A stretch of 35,799 nucleotides of DNA from Bacteroidales bacterium. Its GTDB lineage: Bacteria; Bacteroidota; Bacteroidia; Bacteroidales; VadinHA17. The stretch spans positions 1-35,799 of the forward strand of contig WOYX01000049.1 of NCBI GenBank assembly GCA_011620595.1, given 5' to 3'. The notes under the pieces are model-generated. The model was given only the letters and a program-made list of their open reading frames with translations, ran no database searches and had not been told where the DNA came from. Shown one piece after another: positions 7,242-35,799 of this stretch; positions within the stretch are counted from its first letter, which is position 1, and each line of letters starts with the position of its first letter. The position numbers and the translations under genes are program-made.

Positions 7242-9362
7242 TTATACTCCGGTCAGCTTTTCGTCGGCGAAAGACCTGAGGGCTCTTACCTGTTCTTCGT
7301 GCGGCACGGATTGCAATCGTCTTGCCGTTTCAGTGAGGAAGGGATTCTGCTCAACCATCGCAATCATTTTTCTGAACCAGGCCTTTGTATCATAAGCCTT
7401 ACCGTAAGCCATCTCCTCGCGGTAGAGCCTGTCGGCCATGGAGATGAAATCCACCCTGCCTGTAAAATCATAAACCGCATCATGCAGCACCATGCCGGCC
7501 AAACTCTCCTGATGTGGCTGGAAGGCTGTCTCCATAAGTTCCGTGACAACTTCCAGCGTCTGGTTCTCAAAACCGTAAACTGCCAGTATCTCTTCAGCTC
7601 TCTTCCTGGCGGCGGATAGCGGTTCACCGTAATCAAAGACATAACCGTAAAAGATAAACAGCGATGCCAGCCTGACATTTATGTAATCGCGGTCTTCAAG
7701 CTGCTCCGCCCTCGCCAGAAGATCGACCTGCAGAGATACACTCCGTATATGGTCAGGGCTGTGAAAAAAGAGGTCGGGCGAGGCATTCTCGGAATACCTG
7801 GCAAAAACATGTTCTTCAACATCGAGTATGCGTATCATCTCAATCCGGTTGAAGAACTTCCTGTTTGGTGAACCATCCGGCTCTGAAAACTCAGGCCTTA
7901 TGCCCGTAACAAAGTACATGTCAAGGTCGCCCTTGTATTTCACCGGCATTCTGCCGCGGTATTCACATGTAAAATAATCCTTCACGAATTCATAGGTAGT
8001 GCCGGAAATATTGATCTTACCGGCTTCACCGGAAGACTCCATCCTGCTGGCGGTGTTGACGGTATCACCCCAGATGTCATACGTGAGCTTCGTATGCCCT
8101 ACGACACCTGCTATTACCGTTCCTGTATGGATGCCTATCCTGATGTCCCAGAAGCGAGCGGCATTGTTGGAGGGATCATTCCTCATGAACTCCATATACT
8201 TCTGCATCTCCAGTGCTGCCAGCACTACCTCCACGGGATTGGTCCTGTTCCTCTCCGGAATACCTCCGGCACACATGTAGGCATCGCCTATGGTCTTTAT
8301 CTTTTCTATCCTGTATTTCTGGGTAACCAAATCAAAATGGAAGAAGAAGCGGTCTAGCTCATCTATCAGAACTTCCGGATTCATCTCTTCGGCAATCTTG
8401 GTAAATCCCTGAATATCTGAAAAAAGCACTGTAACGAAATTATACTTGGTCTTTGCTGCCTTGCCCTTTGACATTATCTCCTGGGCCGTCCCTCTGGGCA
8501 GCATGTTGGCGAGAAGATTATCTGATTTTTCCTTTTCGTGCTTTAGTTCCTCGGTCCGTTCCGCAATCAGTTCCTCAAGCCTCTTCTGCCTCTCCATAAA
8601 GCGACGGTGTGTGTGCCTGCGGATAAGCATGCCCCCAAGAACAAGAAGCAACGGGTATATTACCAAGGCCAGCGGAGAGAGGTACCACGGTGCCCTTACC
8701 CTGAATGCAAATGAGCCCTCTCCCATCACATCTCCGCCCCGGACACGGTGGCGGTACATGAATGTGTACCTTCCCTGGCTCAGGTTGGTGTACTCCTTGT
8801 AGCTCCTGCCGGTCCATGCACTCCATTCCACATCAGGTCCGGCCATGAAAAACGAGTATTCTGTTGCACCGTCATTCTCCATGGTGAAGACTATGCCTTC
8901 CCTGTGGTTGAGAACCGGTATCTCTTTTTTCATGTCAATCAGGTAGCCTGACCTATAAAGCCTGATATTTAATATCTTACATGAATCTTCAAGGATGTCT
9001 GCCCGGTCTGCCACCAGCGGGTCAGAAAGCCACACACCAACTGACGGCTGACCGGAGAGCCGCTTATCTGTAACCGGCGGATCAAAGAGCCACACACCAA
9101 CTGCCGGCTGACCGGAGAGCCGATTATCTGTAACCAGCGGGTCAGAAAGCCACACACCAACTGCCGGCTGACCGGAGAGCCGCTCGCCTGTAACCGGCTT
9201 ATCATAAAGCCGAGCTCCTGCCACCGGCAGACCGTAGAGCCTGCCACCTGCCACCGGCAGACCGTAGAGCCTGCTACCTGCCACCGGCAGACCGGCAGAC
9301 CATAATCCTGCTGTAAGCAGCAGGCTGCACAAAACTTTACCGTGGAAGAATTTGAAGATCAT
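7242..9362 (-). CDS. Membrane class III adenylate cyclase with decapeptide repeats and degenerate HD domain
   Basis: 706 aa. A signal peptide (about 1-23) is followed by about ten tandem 10-residue units (about 25-120; LPVAGGRLYG becoming QPAVGVWLSD/PLVTDNRLSG). Next come a Y_Y_Y-like beta-sandwich (about 150-222, ending GEGSFAFRVRAPWY), a membrane segment (about 226-248), a coiled coil (252-282) and a class III catalytic domain (about 305-490). Metal-binding aspartates are D316 (FSDIQGF) and D360 (TIGDAYM). Adenine-type specificity residues are K356 and D429, and the transition-state residues N436 and R440 are present, so cAMP synthesis is predicted. The C-terminal region (about 505-690) aligns with the HD domain of the paralogue at 12523-13917, but the HD pair is replaced by IFYGYVFDYGE and the later DAD by HDAVYD, so it should be catalytically dead. 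The ligand sensed outside the membrane is unknown. ATG at 9362, divergent from rdgB. Confidence 0.88.
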   Translation of the reverse strand: MIFKFFHGKVLCSLLLTAGLWSAGLPVAGSRLYGLPVAGGRLYGLPVAGARLYDKPVTGERLSGQPAVGVWLSDPLVTDNRLSGQPAVGVWLFDPPVTDKRLSGQPSVGVWLSDPLVADRADILEDSCKILNIRLYRSGYLIDMKKEIPVLNHREGIVFTMENDGATEYSFFMAGPDVEWSAWTGRSYKEYTNLSQGRYTFMYRHRVRGGDVMGEGSFAFRVRAPWYLSPLALVIYPLLLVLGGMLIRRHTHRRFMERQKRLEELIAERTEELKHEKEKSDNLLANMLPRGTAQEIMSKGKAAKTKYNFVTVLFSDIQGFTKIAEEMNPEVLIDELDRFFFHFDLVTQKYRIEKIKTIGDAYMCAGGIPERNRTNPVEVVLAALEMQKYMEFMRNDPSNNAARFWDIRIGIHTGTVIAGVVGHTKLTYDIWGDTVNTASRMESSGEAGKINISGTTYEFVKDYFTCEYRGRMPVKYKGDLDMYFVTGIRPEFSEPDGSPNRKFFNRIEMIRILDVEEHVFARYSENASPDLFFHSPDHIRSVSLQVDLLARAEQLEDRDYINVRLASLFIFYGYVFDYGEPLSAARKRAEEILAVYGFENQTLEVVTELMETAFQPHQESLAGMVLHDAVYDFTGRVDFISMADRLYREEMAYGKAYDTKAWFRKMIAMVEQNPFLTETARRLQSVPHEEQVRALRSFADEKLTGV
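9008..9300 (-). repeat. Intragenic 30-bp/60-bp tandem repeat in the cyclase gene
   Basis: A 30-bp unit (10 codons) is repeated about ten times in phase. The copies nearest the gene start (9211-9294) repeat every 30 bp, around CCACCGGCAGACCGTAGAGC in + strand orientation. The three copies at 9001-9180 repeat every 60 bp as two diverged half units; by eye, the 60-bp copies at 9061 and 9121 differ at five positions. This is a higher-order repeat, in which a 30-bp unit diverged in pairs and was then amplified as 60-bp blocks. Confidence 0.9.
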
Positions 9363-9385
9363 CTCTGGTAATAACGCAGATATAA

Positions 9386-9393
9386 CAAAAATA
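9386..9393 (-). promoter_or_regulatory. Candidate -7 box for the membrane cyclase gene
   Basis: TATTTTTG on the minus strand, 23 bases before the ATG at 9362. It matches TAnnTTTG, but no TTG is seen at the right spacing. Confidence 0.3.
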
Positions 9394-9448
9394 ATCTTTT
9401 ATTTCACTGTTTTGGCTGTCTGAGGATACCCTGACAGTATGCAATGAT

Positions 9449-9456
9449 TAATTTTG
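9449..9456 (+). promoter_or_regulatory. Candidate -7 box for rdgB-porZ
   Basis: TAATTTTG, an exact TAnnTTTG match, 19 bases before the rdgB ATG. No clear -33 TTG. Confidence 0.38.
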
Positions 9457-9475
9457 TCAATTATCCGATCATATA

Positions 9476-10063
9476 ATGGAACTACTGTTTGCTACAAACA
9501 ATAAGCACAAGATCAGGGAGATAAGTGATCTGCTGGACGAAGACTTCCGAATTATGGGACTCTCTGACGTGAACATCACCGAAGATATCCCTGAAGAGGA
9601 GGATACTCTTGCCGGCAATGCTCTCAGCAAGGCCCGATACGTTTATGAGAGGACCGGCATGAATGTCTTTGCAGATGACACTGGGCTCGAGGTTGACGCC
9701 CTGGGAGGTGAGCCGGGGGTTTTCTCAGCACGGTATGCCGGCGAGGGAAAAAGCTTCGATGACAATATTGACAAACTGCTGCTACGGATGGAGGGGGTCA
9801 CTGACCGCAGGGCGCGCTTCCGCACAGTCATTGCCCTGATACTTGATAACAGGGAGCACCTTTTTGAGGGAACGGTTGAGGGAGAGATTCTCAGTGAGAG
9901 GCGGGGAACAGGAGGCTTCGGCTATGACCCGGTCTTCCGTGCTGAAGGCTATGAGCTCACCTTCGCCGAGATCCCGCTATCGGAGAAGAACACCGTCTCC
10001 CACCGCGCCCGTGCAATGAGAAAACTGCTGGAGTTCCTTGCATCAGTGAAAGAGAGACAATAA
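9476..10063 (+). CDS. rdgB: RdgB/HAM1 non-canonical purine NTP pyrophosphatase
   Basis: This enzyme hydrolyses dITP, ITP and XTP to monophosphates, which keeps deaminated purines out of DNA and RNA. The 195-aa protein is full length, with the family motifs: N-terminal LLFATNNKHKIREI, the EDTLAGNALSKA segment, FADDTGLEVDALGGEPGVFSARYAGE, GTGGFGYDPVF and the C-terminal EKNTVSHRARA. ATG at 9476. The porZ gene starts 26 bases after its stop codon, so the two are probably co-transcribed. Confidence 0.96.
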   Translation: MELLFATNNKHKIREISDLLDEDFRIMGLSDVNITEDIPEEEDTLAGNALSKARYVYERTGMNVFADDTGLEVDALGGEPGVFSARYAGEGKSFDDNIDKLLLRMEGVTDRRARFRTVIALILDNREHLFEGTVEGEILSERRGTGGFGYDPVFRAEGYELTFAEIPLSEKNTVSHRARAMRKLLEFLASVKERQ

Positions 10064-10089
10064 ACCGCAATCAGTGCGGCTCCGGAATA

Positions 10090-12387
10090 ATGAAAAAGCT
10101 ATTTCTCACGTTAGTGATGACCTGCCTCACCCTGCCCCATTACGGACAGGGCCCGGTGGGGTCATGGAAGGATCGGCTCTCCTATAGCTCCTCGCTGAGC
10201 CTCGCTGCCGGAGATAACAAAGTCTTTTCCTCGGCCGGTGCTGCGATACTTGTCTACGACATCCCGTCACGGACTGCATCTTCCATCTCGCGGGTCACGG
10301 GCCTGAATGAGACCCTGGTGAGCTCTGTTGCCTGGTGCGAAGAGGAAGAGACACTGATCATTGTCTACAGGAATACATCCGTTGACCTTCTGCGAAAGGG
10401 CATCGTCACAAACATTCCCGACATCAAAAACAAATATATCCCGGGACTCAAGGAAATTTACGGCGTCACCGTTGCTGGCACCAGGGCCATGCTTGCAGGA
10501 AGCTTTGGCATCGTTGTGCTTGATATAAGGGGAAGGTATGTCGCTGACACCTGGAGGCCGGGTTCTGACGGGGATGTTAACACCGTATCGGGAACAGCCA
10601 TCCTCGGAGACAGAATTTACGCCGCCACAGCCACCGGGGTCTTCTCCGCGCCTCTGGCCAGGCCGGGACTCTCATTCTTCGGTAACTGGGAGAGGCTGGA
10701 GGGTCTCCCCGCTCCAGGGTCATCATACAGCGGCATCGCTGCCGCCGGCACTGCACTTTTCATCACCAGGCCAGGGTCAGCTTCATCTGCTGACTCTCTC
10801 TTCCGGATCATCCCGGGACAAGATGCCTCCCTCATCCATGCCTCGCCCGGGGGAAGCATGAGATCGGTAACGGCTACCGGCAACAGTGTAAGCCTTGCCA
10901 CAACCTCTGCGCTCCGGATGTTTTCCGTCCAGGGCGTATTGCAGAAGGAGATCACCAGTTACGCGTCCGGTACAGCAAACCCGGTAACAGCAACCGTCAC
11001 CGGACAGACACTCTGGATTGCCGATGCTTCTGCAGGACTCGTCTCTACCGATGATTATTCAACATATGTCAGCCACACTCTCCCCGGGCCATATACAAAC
11101 AATGTTGCTGACATTCATTTTGCCGGCAACAATTTTTACGTGACAGGAGGCACCGTTGACAACGCCTGGGGGAATGTCTACCGCCCCCTGCAGGTTTTCA
11201 CCGGCTCAGGCGACAAATGGAGGAGCACCATACTTTACCGGCCGGAAGACAGGGACGCCATGAGGGTGATAGCGGACCCTGAAGATGAAACCCATTATTT
11301 CGTCTCATCATGGGGAAACGGCCTGTATGAGTTCAGGGATGGTGAGATGGTCATGAATTACAACCAGGAAAACTCTCCCCTGTCAAGTATCATTCCCGGC
11401 GAAAACTATACCCGCATTTGTGGTCTTGCATTTGACCGCGATGGCTACCTCTGGATGACACAGTCAGGGGTTCCCGGTAACCTGAAGGCCCTGACACCTG
11501 ACGGAAACTGGATCTCAACCTCACTTAATCTGGGTGTCCCGGTGACAGGAGACATGGTCATCGACCGCAACGGATTCATCTGGGTGATCCTGCCCCGCGG
11601 CTACGGGCTGCTTGTATATGACCCGGCAGGAACGCCGGCAACACTGACCGATGACAGATATCTGAGGCTCCAGGTGACAGACACCGAAGACCATGTGATG
11701 AACAACCTCTTCTCAATTGCGGCTGACAGTGACGGCAGCATCTGGCTCGGCACCGACATGGGCCCGGCAGTTTTCTACAACCCGGGCAAGGCATTCACCG
11801 GTGAACTGAAGGCAACAAGAATAAAGATCCCGAGAAACGACGGGTCGGGTCTCGCCGATTACCTGCTCGGGACAGAGACCGTGACCTCCATCTGTGTTGA
11901 CGGGGCCAACAGGAAATGGTTGGGCACCATGAGCTCCGGGGCATGGCTTATGTCTGATGACGGCAAGGAGGAGCTCATCCATTTCAACAGCAGCAACAGT
12001 CCCCTGCTCTCCGACAATATTGTAAAAATAAATATAAACCCGGTCACCGGGGAGGTGTGGTTCGGCACCTCGGAAGGCATCATCTCGTTCCGAGGTGATG
12101 CCACGGCAGGAAAAGAGGATTTTTCGTCCCTCTATGTCTTCCCCAATCCTGTAAGGGAGGACTTTGAGGGGGTGGTGACCGTAACGGGACTGGTCGAAAA
12201 CTCCTCCGTCAAGATCACTGACATCAGCGGCAACCTCGTCTATGAGACAACCTCGACGGGTGGACAGGCAACATGGGACCTCCGCAATTACCGGTCGGAA
12301 AGAGTAACAACGGGGGTCTACCTGGTCTTCTGCAGCAATGAGGACGGCAGCCTGGCAAAAGTCACAAAGATGCTGGTGATAAGGTGA
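10090..12387 (+). CDS. porZ: Type IX secretion system protein PorZ-like
   Basis: 765 aa with a signal peptide (1 to about 19, ending HYGQ). It then has the PorZ-type N-terminus (GSWKDRLSYSSSLSLAAGDNKVF, with YD and I..VTGLNET motifs) and two successive beta-propeller regions with short blade motifs such as DRDGYLWMTQ, DRNGFIWV and DSDGSIWLGT. A C-terminal T9SS sorting-type domain (about 680-765: VFPNPVREDF, VKITDISGNLVYE, GVYLVFCSN, KVTKMLVIR) closes the protein. In Porphyromonas gingivalis PorZ is an outer-surface partner of the PorU sortase, which attaches T9SS cargo to A-LPS. Such proteins are often misnamed two-component regulators because of the propeller repeats. The gene follows rdgB, with recO a few kb further on. 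ATG at 10090. Confidence 0.85.
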   Translation: MKKLFLTLVMTCLTLPHYGQGPVGSWKDRLSYSSSLSLAAGDNKVFSSAGAAILVYDIPSRTASSISRVTGLNETLVSSVAWCEEEETLIIVYRNTSVDLLRKGIVTNIPDIKNKYIPGLKEIYGVTVAGTRAMLAGSFGIVVLDIRGRYVADTWRPGSDGDVNTVSGTAILGDRIYAATATGVFSAPLARPGLSFFGNWERLEGLPAPGSSYSGIAAAGTALFITRPGSASSADSLFRIIPGQDASLIHASPGGSMRSVTATGNSVSLATTSALRMFSVQGVLQKEITSYASGTANPVTATVTGQTLWIADASAGLVSTDDYSTYVSHTLPGPYTNNVADIHFAGNNFYVTGGTVDNAWGNVYRPLQVFTGSGDKWRSTILYRPEDRDAMRVIADPEDETHYFVSSWGNGLYEFRDGEMVMNYNQENSPLSSIIPGENYTRICGLAFDRDGYLWMTQSGVPGNLKALTPDGNWISTSLNLGVPVTGDMVIDRNGFIWVILPRGYGLLVYDPAGTPATLTDDRYLRLQVTDTEDHVMNNLFSIAADSDGSIWLGTDMGPAVFYNPGKAFTGELKATRIKIPRNDGSGLADYLLGTETVTSICVDGANRKWLGTMSSGAWLMSDDGKEELIHFNSSNSPLLSDNIVKININPVTGEVWFGTSEGIISFRGDATAGKEDFSSLYVFPNPVREDFEGVVTVTGLVENSSVKITDISGNLVYETTSTGGQATWDLRNYRSERVTTGVYLVFCSNEDGSLAKVTKMLVIR

Positions 12388-12522
12388 TCATCCTTACCCG
12401 AAAGAGGTCCTGCCATACTGCCAATGAGAAGAATTGCCGACGTTACAGTAGTCGACAGGACAGTTGTGATGAGGTGATCACACATCTGTGAAAGAGTAAC
12501 GATGGTGCTTGTAATGAGGTGA
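12388..12522 (+). other. Two in-phase remnants of the porZ 3' end
   Basis: Just beyond the porZ stop, the same reading frame holds two further copies of the tail KMLVIR-stop: RTVVMR-stop (stop at 12475-12477) and MVLVMR-stop (stop at 12520-12522). All three are followed by TCA, giving repeated aGGTGATCA. Stops are 90 and 45 bases apart. The last copy is preceded by ERVTM, resembling ERVTTGV inside porZ. The stretch lies between the convergent porZ and cyclase genes and shows no other gene. Confidence 0.5.
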
Positions 12523-13917
12523 TCACTCTTCCGTGATCAGGCTTTGTATCCTTTCAATCTGAAGCTTCTTGTTAACCTCCCTGAGACTGCGGGCGGTGGC
12601 AGTGAAGTACTGATGCCCTGATATAAACTTCACCTGCATCTTGTTCCAGTCGTTCAGATTTGTGATCTTGTCCTGAGCCTTCATCTCCTCAAAAAGGGTG
12701 TTGGAGACCGGAATGAAGTCGCTCCTGCCCAGGTAGTCCAGATCGGCATCGCAGATGATCTGCTCCAGGATGTTTGACGGCCTGGGAGGCAGTTTTGTTG
12801 ACATGATTATCTCGCAAATACGTTTTATCTGCTCATCACTGTAGCCGTATGCCGGAAGCATCTCCTGCGCCATAAGAGTACTCTGGTACTCATGATCATC
12901 ATATGACACCGTATGGCCGGCATCGTGGAAGAGCGCCGCCGTCTTCAGTAGCAGTATCTCCTCATCACTGCACCCTTCAGCCCATCCTATCAACTCCACC
13001 TCCGTAACCACATCCACGGTGTGCTTGACGTTATGATAAAAGAGAAACTCAGGCAGCTCCCTCTCAAGCTTGTCGAGTATAATCTCCTGTATGTCAGTGA
13101 ACTGTATCAGGCCAAACTTGACCCTGAAGGCTTCATTGGGCCGGAAACCGTGTCCGTCAACCGACAATGCGGGCAGGAGACCTCGTACCTGGTACATATG
13201 GACACTTCCGGTGTACTTCACCGGAAGCTTGCCGTAGAAGTCACAGCTGAAGAACTCCTTTATCAGCTCATAGGTCATTACCGAAATGATGATCGACTCA
13301 TTCTCCGCGACAACCTCTATCCTGCTTGCAGTGTTCACTGCCCGCCCCTTGATATCATATGACACCTTGTTCCTGCCCGATATGGTGGCAGTGACCGGAC
13401 CGGTATGAATGCCTATTTTCAGGTTCCAGATCCTGTCGCTGCCTCTCTTTCTGGTTTCATACTCCTTCAGAAAATGTCTCAGCTCAACAGCCGCCATTAC
13501 TACCTCAACAGGGTTGGTGATATTCTTTGTCGGTATCCCTCCTGCGCACATTATGGTGTCACCGATAGTCCTGATCTTTTCAACATGATACTTCCCGATG
13601 ATTCTGTCGAACTCATAAAAGATCTCATCCAGCTCATCCATAACACGGTCGGAGTCCATATTCTCAACGAGCTTTGAGAAGCCGTGAATATCTGCGAACA
13701 GAACCGTGACCATGTTGTATCTGAACGACTTCTCCTCAGCCTGCGGTTTGGCTCCCGGCAGCTCCTGCCTTTCAATCAGAAGCCTGTACTTCTCATTGAT
13801 TTCCAGCAGCCTCTGCTTCTCCTTCTCAAGTTTCTTGACATGTTCATCAAGCTCCTTGTTCTGACGCGCAAGACGCGCTATGCGCTTGAGAAGCTGATCT
13901 TTTGATCTCAGGTCCAT
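12523..13917 (-). CDS. Soluble class III nucleotide cyclase fused to an intact HD phosphohydrolase domain
   Basis: 464 aa with no signal peptide or membrane span. An N-terminal coiled coil (about 5-50) leads into a class III cyclase domain (about 65-245) with metal-binding D76 (FADIHGF) and D120 (TIGDTIM), and N195/R199 in NTASR. At the base-specificity positions it has R116, where adenylate cyclases have Lys, and D188. The C-terminal domain (about 265-450) keeps the HD ligands: H299, HD at 331-332 (FHDAGH), H342, and D390/D392 (CDADLDYLGR). Predicted role: makes cAMP or a related cyclic nucleotide, with an attached hydrolase that may act on the product or on another phosphoester. It is a paralogue of the membrane cyclase at 7242-9362, whose HD domain is decayed. 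ATG at 13917; convergent with porZ. Confidence 0.87.
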   Translation of the reverse strand: MDLRSKDQLLKRIARLARQNKELDEHVKKLEKEKQRLLEINEKYRLLIERQELPGAKPQAEEKSFRYNMVTVLFADIHGFSKLVENMDSDRVMDELDEIFYEFDRIIGKYHVEKIRTIGDTIMCAGGIPTKNITNPVEVVMAAVELRHFLKEYETRKRGSDRIWNLKIGIHTGPVTATISGRNKVSYDIKGRAVNTASRIEVVAENESIIISVMTYELIKEFFSCDFYGKLPVKYTGSVHMYQVRGLLPALSVDGHGFRPNEAFRVKFGLIQFTDIQEIILDKLERELPEFLFYHNVKHTVDVVTEVELIGWAEGCSDEEILLLKTAALFHDAGHTVSYDDHEYQSTLMAQEMLPAYGYSDEQIKRICEIIMSTKLPPRPSNILEQIICDADLDYLGRSDFIPVSNTLFEEMKAQDKITNLNDWNKMQVKFISGHQYFTATARSLREVNKKLQIERIQSLITEE

Positions 13918-35559: not shown

Positions 35560-35649
35560 CTCCAAGACCTTCGTCTGATGAGGCAATAGGTAGTAGTGAA
35601 AATGTTTCTATTATGGATTTTTGATATAATCAAATTTCGCAAATCACTT

Positions 35650-35799
35650 CAGACCTTCCGACCTCAGACCTTCAGACCTCAGACCTTCAGACCTTCCGAC
35701 CTTCAGACCTCAGACCTCAGACCTTCCGACCTTCAGACCTCAGACCTCAGACCTTCAGACCTCAGACCTTCAGACCTCAGACCTTCAGACCTCAGACCT
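35650..35799. repeat. Tandem array of mixed 7- and 8-base units
   Basis: Twenty consecutive units of CAGACCT or CAGACCTT, three of them with CCG in place of CAG, fill the last 150 bases and run off the window edge. Seven-base and eight-base units are interspersed, so no reading frame is kept. The array starts 90 bases after the GNAT stop codon, in a region with no other feature. Confidence 0.95.

Follow-up and report, generated by a model that had tools for sequence, protein, structure and literature searches.

Two sister cyclase-HD proteins of Bacteroidales decayed in opposite halves: a possible receptor cyclase and its matching hydrolase

Known designs and the cyclase-HD pair

Among described proteins, the closest design to the one considered here is that of CAPE (COMBINED AC with PDE), which is found in liverworts and other plants with motile sperm, unites a class III adenylyl cyclase with a class I phosphodiesterase in a single polypeptide and, in Marchantia, has been shown to possess both activities (PMC5159850, PMC8115329). 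We have analyzed a 35,799-nucleotide stretch of the genome of an uncultured member of Bacteroidales (assembly GCA_011620595.1, contig WOYX01000049.1, positions 1 to 35,799 of the forward strand; hereafter the window) that encodes two class III cyclases followed by C-terminal HD-type regions, hereafter abbreviated as M for the membrane protein (7242-9362) and S for the soluble protein (12523-13917). In CAPE, the phosphodiesterase is N-terminal with membrane spans between the two domains, whereas the HD domain here is C-terminal, shorter and distantly like class I enzymes, and the two activities appear to be divided between two paralogues. Neither a bacterial cyclase-HD pair nor its division of labour was the subject of any paper that we found in the open-licence PMC literature, and the available part of a 2005 signalling census (PMC1183210) holds no such fusion. 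Each part of the pair comes from a known superfamily; the new element is the pairing by opposite decay.

Judged from residue conservation across the sampled copies, the sisters have decayed in opposite halves, M keeping the cyclase and S the HD domain, a pattern suggestive of two matched partners that turn an internal messenger on and off. Our whole reading, namely that M is a receptor cyclase and S the matching HD hydrolase, reached by opposite specialisation from one cyclase-HD ancestor, we regard as evenly poised between right and wrong. The assembly comprises 3.08 Mb in 63 contigs and is 96% complete; a search of all of it with PF00211 found M and S and no third copy. Their features in the window are as follows.

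7242-9362, minus strand: M, a membrane class III cyclase of 706 residues with a C-terminal pseudo-HD domain (open reading frame, PF00211)
8748-8882, minus strand: Y_Y_Y domain (periplasmic sensor type) of M, residues 161-205 (Pfam, below the cut-off)
8622-8687, minus strand: hydrophobic segment of M read by eye as a transmembrane helix, residues 226-247
7908-8453, minus strand: cyclase catalytic domain of M, residues 304-485, with FSDIQG, EKIKTIGD, YDIWG and VNTASR all present
7245-7904, minus strand: pseudo-HD domain of M (alignment, model and PDB fold matches)
12523-13917, minus strand: S, a soluble class III cyclase-HD protein of 464 residues (open reading frame, Pfam)
13183-13722, minus strand: cyclase domain of S, residues 66-245, the six catalytic and substrate residues being present in this copy
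12526-13170, minus strand: HD domain of S, residues 250-464, with the full ligand set (Pfam, model and fold matches)
13021-13038, minus strand: YHNVKH of S (Y294-H299), as the YHNxxH of class I cyclic-nucleotide phosphodiesterases
12913-12927, minus strand: HDAGH of S (H331-H335)
12892-12894, minus strand: H342 of S
12742-12750, minus strand: DAD of S (D390-D392)
12625-12636, minus strand: QVKF of S (Q428-F431)

A first-pass annotation of this DNA had read both open reading frames as a cyclase domain followed by an HD-type region, and both are indeed found at these positions with this arrangement: PF00211 matches M at E 5.4e-54 and S at E 9.7e-39, in each case above the curated cut-off, and the alignment of M with S runs through the C-terminus (35% over M residues 254-702, 284 bits). 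All six catalytic and substrate residues of the cyclase (two metal Asp, the Lys/Asp pair, Asn and Arg) are present in M. K114 and D188, the presumed adenine-specifying pair, are present in the window S. The HD domain of S is recognised by PF01966 at residues 298-392 (E 1.5e-7, over the cut-off) and contains H295, H299, H331-D332, H335, H342, D390 and D392, so that the H...HD...D ligand pattern is complete, in agreement with the residues from H299 to D392 named in the annotation; its AlphaFold model, computed from an alignment headed by S (A1, 64 rows, including some M copies with intact HD), has a mean predicted local distance difference test (pLDDT) score of 95.0.

The C-terminus of M gives no match to Pfam HD at E<1 and reads FHSPDH, FIFYGY (F-I-F for F-H-D), P for H342 and D-A-V for D-A-D at the places of the S motifs. 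It is without equivalents of H331, D332, H342 and D392, as well as of QxxF, but retains H534 (equivalent to H295), H538 (H299) and D628 (D390). The reported loss of the HD pair and the DAD motif thus has to be amended to a partial one, in which the HD pair, H342 and D392 are gone and the other three ligands are kept; the H...HD...D metal set is not found in M, where the HD pair has become I-F and the fold alone is kept. The model of this domain, from an alignment headed by M (A2, 50 rows), has a mean pLDDT of 95.5 and its best PDB fold matches are 2pjq (Z 16.0 over 185 residues, 3.0 Å) and 3b57 (15.5), followed by YpgQ 5dqw (15.2) and PDE10A 4dff (15.1 over 194 residues, 3.8 Å). The outcome that the first-pass annotation had named as refuting its idea, a C-terminus of M unrelated to HD domains, was thus not obtained; chance or misreading of the HD domain in M is rejected on account of the confident model, these PDB matches and the intermediates with part of the ligands that occur in other genera.

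N-terminally of its cyclase, M carries a Y_Y_Y domain of 21.8 bits against a cut-off of 26.6, which the relatives L074 and L108 exceed. The M of L108 has the domains Reg_prop, Y_Y_Y, cyclase and HD, thus sharing Reg_prop and Y_Y_Y with known sensors of Bacteroidota; the difference from the latter is that the output of M is a cyclase and not a kinase or regulator, and that the window M has a weak Y_Y_Y only. M measures 529-706 residues in the window's family, and in many sampled genomes of other families its frame extends to about 1,190-1,300 residues; one of 1,225 residues (L090) has no Reg_prop match and a Y_Y_Y just below the cut-off ahead of the cyclase.

Opposite decay in S and M

Sequences were taken from hand-picked samples of 40 stretches from 39 genomes of the same family and 60 stretches from the order. 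Seven HD residues (H295, H299, H331, D332, H342, D390 and D392) and six cyclase residues (D76, K114, D120, D188, N195 and R199; all in S numbering) were scored in 63 rows of S, of which 39 belong to the family and 24 span 15 other families, and in 75 rows of M, 40 of the family and 35 spanning 22 other families. All seven HD residues are intact in every S row (63/63), as they are in two further ones, whereas in M they are intact in 1 of the 40 family copies and 22 of the 35 others. The cyclase presents the opposite pattern: its six residues are complete in 72 of the 75 M rows (40/40 in the family and 32/35 elsewhere) but, among the S rows, in only 31 of the 39 from the family and 1 of the 24 from elsewhere. 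Taken alone, the first metal Asp of S is retained in 35/39 and 7/24 of these copies, respectively, and some of the remaining failures are a mild change of D188 to E. S copies from outside the family, 17 of the 24 being without the first metal Asp, keep D120 and R199 in all cases and K114 and N195 in 22 each. Since cyclase residues are missing from most of these copies, the function conserved in S is, on this pattern, that of its HD domain and not of its cyclase. In one genome (L125, G145:C10:127500-129900), S is found as two adjacent open reading frames, a cyclase of 298 and an HD domain of 179 residues, by either fission or frameshift.

The rates of divergence follow the same division. Over 38 genomes of the family (703 genome pairs, four domains), mean pairwise identity is 0.677 for the S cyclase and 0.805 for the S HD, 0.817 for the M cyclase and 0.391, the lowest of the four, for the M HD; the HD is the more conserved domain of S in 99.1% of the pairs and the cyclase that of M in all of them. 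A tree of 92 rows separates S from M by a single branch with support 99. The position of the root is not fixed and, with midpoint rooting, a four-row M group (f19 and f115) falls beside S, so M need not be a clade. A recent local duplication was rejected, since the branch that splits S from M lies in a tree spanning many families. On this tree, a minimum of 8 changes is needed to account for the absence of the metal Asp from S copies and a minimum of 4 for the missing HD residues of M copies.

The QxxF motif is present in all 63 S rows. Among M copies with intact HD it is kept nearly throughout (Q 23/23, F 22/23), and in those with broken HD it is often lost (Q being kept in 28/52, F in 7/52); as it decays together with the HD ligands in M, it seems to be part of the same functional site. 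We consider the division of labour, as deduced from these residues, to be clear in the window's family and among the S copies sampled; elsewhere it is a tendency that has exceptions.

The equivalents of H295 and D390 are retained in 75/75 M copies, including those that have lost the HD pair. Together with the predicted fold, this speaks for the pseudo-HD being a conserved part of the membrane cyclase that binds a nucleotide in a regulatory role, a reading akin to the regulatory or dimerising domain proposed in the first-pass annotation, which these observations do not contradict. Yet its mean family identity of 0.391, against 0.817 for the adjoining cyclase, and the replacement of ligand positions by many different residues, as in drift, render such a module rather doubtful: relaxed constraint would fit better than a strongly conserved regulatory surface.

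Affinities of the HD domain and its cyclase neighbours

In S, the motifs YHNxxHxxDV and HDxxH, the later Asp and QxxF occur in the order of class I phosphodiesterases such as PDE4D, PDE9A and PDE10A, the QxxF following the second Asp, and the fold of the domain matches that of PDE10A at Z 17.0. The differences are that sequence similarity is limited to the first two motifs and that the HD domain of S has about 215 residues, compared with about 300 in most of the phosphodiesterase chains listed. In the class I enzymes the conserved Gln recognises the purine, and plant CAPE proteins are described with Asn or Thr in its place (PMC8115329). The correspondence of the S QxxF with the conserved Gln and Phe of PDE4D was not recovered by hmmsearch or hhalign and is a pattern match only; the curated PDEase_I model (PF00233) scores S at 16.5 bits, below its cut-off of 24.8.

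The relatives of this domain outside the order bear on its substrate. A profile of alignment A1 matches 142 of the 296 genomes sampled in the phylum, and we compared the 22 best matches outside the order (at least 154 bits) with 35 weaker ones (100-151 bits, drawn from 41 genomes searched for PF00211). The two matches next after the best 22 (in G463 and G584) lie outside that count, that of G463 being included among the weaker 35. A PF00211 cyclase lies within 1 kb of the HD domain in 7 of the 22 (0.046 expected under random placement) and within 3 kb in 11 (0.10 expected), with the proviso that these relatives are not fully independent by descent. The layouts comprise separate neighbouring genes (with gaps between the domains of 37 bp in G377, 23 bp in G482 and 257 bp in G478), HD genes in a row, a cyclase-HD fusion in G401 and a protein kinase-AAA-GAF-cyclase-HD fusion of 1,865 residues in L170. 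That the close relatives occur together with cyclases is our best argument for a cyclic mononucleotide as the substrate. The HD domain of S would most likely be a hydrolase of the cyclic mononucleotide that M is predicted to make.

Lower-scoring HD domains are fused to PycTM, the effector domain of Pycsar, at L177:259-1497 (E 1.6e-34) and L178:1344-2519 (E 9.8e-37), around each of which about 3.5 kb were examined; these fusions suggest that the HD domain gates or cuts back the signal of an effector of the Pycsar kind. Other HD relatives are fused to, or lie beside, YitT-DUF2179 membrane proteins (L153:1516-2973, L159:604-2058, L166, L171 and L172), and in L159 and L166 a response-regulator cyclase stands next to the HD/YitT-DUF2179 genes, forming a recurrent cluster. 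In L174, L175, L176 and L180, a separate HD gene adjoins a short gene whose product starts with the motif RHAKSSW and is presumably phosphohistidine-phosphatase-like.

With slightly less than even confidence, we propose more generally that HD domains of the S type may form an unnamed bacterial class of cyclic-mononucleotide phosphodiesterase in Bacteroidota, which occurs as the tail of a cyclase or as an adjacent gene and has kin on Pycsar-type effectors, and that in Bacteroidales the opposite decay of a duplicated cyclase-HD protein has yielded, on one side, a receptor cyclase and, on the other, a dedicated phosphodiesterase that carries the relic of a cyclase. One ancestral cyclase-HD protein would have given rise to S and M, and these would have parted before the sampled families of the order diverged. 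M, which has a periplasmic Y_Y_Y module, joined in L108 by a Reg_prop propeller, crosses the membrane once and contains a coiled coil besides its intact cyclase, would be a receptor-type class III cyclase that may sense a signal outside the inner membrane via Y_Y_Y and thereby drive its cyclase, the product being most likely cyclic AMP. The HD domain of M would have decayed in the window's clade to a folded, ligand-poor domain for which the role of hydrolase is unlikely, while the retained equivalents of H295 and D390 leave a binding role possible. The HD domain of S would hydrolyse the cyclic mononucleotide of M in the cytosol and the window S, its cyclase residues being intact, may also make some product. 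The level of the messenger, with all that may follow downstream, would then be set by sensor-driven synthesis through M and cytosolic breakdown through S.

Locus, competing explanations and significance

Several observations weigh against the reading of M as receptor cyclase and S as its matching hydrolase. The best PDB fold matches of the S HD are 2pq7 (Z 17.1), PDE10A 4dff (17.0 over 195 residues, 3.1 Å) and YpgQ (16.4); these scores are tied, and therefore the fold does not choose between a phosphodiesterase and other HD hydrolases. Against PDB, the A1 profile finds 2pq7 (E 4e-7) and YedJ (8e-5) and then, weakly, PDE9A and other class I enzymes (E at least 0.006); the alignment with PDE9A covers the YHNxxH-HDxxH part only, as does that of the S HD with PDE4D by hhalign (54 columns, probability 42). 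H335 of S is variable in 6 of the 63 rows, and the cyclase is still complete in the S of the window genome. Half of the closest HD relatives (11/22) are not within 3 kb of a cyclase, three of these 11 having none on the contig and two having it more than 1 Mb away, and the genome of G463 has no PF00211 match at all. The 35 weaker relatives have a cyclase within 1 kb in no case and within 3 kb in 2; as they are seldom near cyclases, the linkage is a feature of the closer kin of the S HD. The Arg-Ser/Thr-Ala cassette, a mark of classical cyclic AMP receptors, was seen by eye in none of the seven cyclic-nucleotide-binding proteins of the genome. On the side of M, a cyclase residue is missing in 3 of the 75 rows, all from f19 or f115, and four of another 18 M-type rows have an intact HD without the first metal Asp of the cyclase (L265 and L266 of f90, L272 of f19 and L273 of f48), so that, judging from these membrane copies of f19, f48 and f90, M has gone the way of S in some lineages.

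A further point of this kind regards the dependence of HD loss in M on the presence of S. The M HD is broken in 2 of the 15 families having M with no listed S match and in 7 of the 16 having both (one-sided Fisher 0.07; scored on H299, H331, D332, D390 and D392 and tallied by hand), or in 4/15 versus 7/16 if H342 is added (one-sided Fisher 0.27). The two broken families without an S match are f7, whose copy ends at the contig end, and f15 in G342, a genome 80% complete; f15 and f54 stand on both sides of the comparison, the HD of f13 is in a separate frame, f30 was scored intact although one of its three genomes (G145, in which S is split) is broken, and the losses are not independent, given the minimum of four changes on the tree.

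Between the two genes of the pair lie two conserved neighbours of the family, as follows.

9476-10063, plus strand: rdgB (Ham1 family)
10090-12387, plus strand: porZ (type IX secretion)

The outer neighbours are an ilvE-type aminotransferase gene after M and recO beside S. M and S do not form one operon, being separated by rdgB and porZ, which are encoded on the opposite strand. The description of the two cyclase genes as flanking rdgB-porZ in the same orientation was correct, and the order S - porZ - rdgB - M recurs in 37/37 loci of the family, chosen for having both genes on one contig. Where S is 54-62% identical to that of the window (12 loci, up to 17 kb each), none of the window neighbours, including rdgB, was found near it.

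These data bear upon the possibility that the HD domain acts on another nucleotide (a deoxynucleoside triphosphate, ppGpp or a noncanonical one), in the manner of YpgQ, its fusion with the cyclase then serving to sense the nucleotide pool. The small HD phosphohydrolases of the YpgQ/2pq7 type, whose substrates are other nucleotides or not established, share with the S HD its fold, its size and the best PDB profile match, 2pq7 being a hydrolase of unnamed substrate, and their fold scores are as good as that of PDE10A; moreover, the distant relatives are near cyclases in only 2/35 cases, four HD relatives lie beside another small gene, and rdgB, a house-cleaning nucleotide hydrolase, sits between S and M. 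We know of no cyclase fusion or linkage for proteins of that type, however, and the close relatives of the S HD are linked to class III cyclases in several layouts, its motifs YHNxxHxxDV, HDxxH and QxxF taken together resemble those of class I phosphodiesterases, and rdgB does not accompany S in the 12 loci just mentioned. A nucleotide other than a cyclic one is, hence, rather unlikely in our judgement.

The first-pass annotation had envisaged a self-limiting switch in one chain, that is, a truly bifunctional S, with M as a second cyclase regulated by its pseudo-HD. For the window S this is conceivable, as it has all six cyclase and seven HD residues, the full cyclase set is found in 31/39 S copies of the family and plant CAPE demonstrates that one chain can hold both activities (PMC5159850). 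The arrangement is not conserved, though: the full set survives in 1/24 S copies outside the family, the cyclase drifts faster than the HD (0.677 versus 0.805) and the first metal Asp, lost through at least eight changes on the tree, is missing in 4/39 copies of the family itself. We therefore hold this switch to be quite unlikely. Equally improbable is a single complex of S and M in which their cyclase domains heterodimerise, M recruits the live HD and the S cyclase serves as docking or allosteric half: class III cyclases are active as dimers, D120, R199, K114 and N195 are mostly kept in the 24 S copies from outside the family, as in a non-catalytic half of a heterodimer, and the genes share one neighbourhood in the 37 family loci, but in other families S and M are apart or on different contigs and several families have M without an S match.

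The PADLOC models for PycC match M (best E 4e-16) and S (9e-11), which we take as ordinary class III similarity. A Pycsar defence locus was rejected as an explanation, since neither S nor M matches PycTM and the neighbours are of the housekeeping kind; no PycTM or PycTIR was found beside the cyclases in the adjacent genes scanned (the ilvE-type aminotransferase, rdgB, porZ and recO). A further likeness to Pycsar systems lies in the PycTM fusions of HD relatives in L177 and L178. Five of the seven cyclic-nucleotide-binding proteins of the genome were scanned with Pfam, and four of them (L003, L004, L006 and L008) carry CRP-type DNA-binding domains. The fifth (L005:1405-3243) has a cyclic-nucleotide-binding domain ahead of an aspartase/fumarase-type lyase domain and is a possible directly regulated enzyme, its phosphate cassette appearing atypical by eye.

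The window also contains two repeats. The first, at 9003-9296 on the minus strand, consists of in-frame tandem repeats (TRF) with 30/60-bp units that follow the putative signal peptide of M, at residues ~23-120. Its origin from a dispersed repeat was discarded, a 180-bp query being found once in the genome. Different versions of the array are visible by eye in L040 and L041, while nine other M copies of the same genus, among them L047 with a short one, are without such a long array. The second, a (CTTCAGAC)n-like tandem repeat with 8/15-bp units, occupies 35647-35799 and reaches the contig end.

As to distribution, the S query matches 111 of the 117 genomes of the family, mostly twice per genome, and 152 of the 247 genomes sampled across the order. 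Both proteins are missing, at E 0.001, from one genome of the same genus that is 96% complete (G095). Outside the family, the two genes of a sampled genome are either widely separated or placed on different contigs, and M occurs with no match to S in several families. The best 80 of at least 586 relatives are all from Bacteroidota, except one from Chlorobiota.

Bacteroides thetaiotaomicron is described as being without relatives of cya and crp, and B. fragilis as having no detectable cyclic AMP (PMC6989115), which is why the presence of the pair in other Bacteroidales is of interest. Its relatives in many uncultured Bacteroidales probably serve a cyclic mononucleotide. Should the HD domain prove to break down the messenger, a phosphodiesterase of Bacteroidota would become open to direct assay, and one would understand why its close relatives stand beside cyclases. 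S and M would then also be a clear example from nature of paralogues that share out the activities of a bifunctional enzyme.

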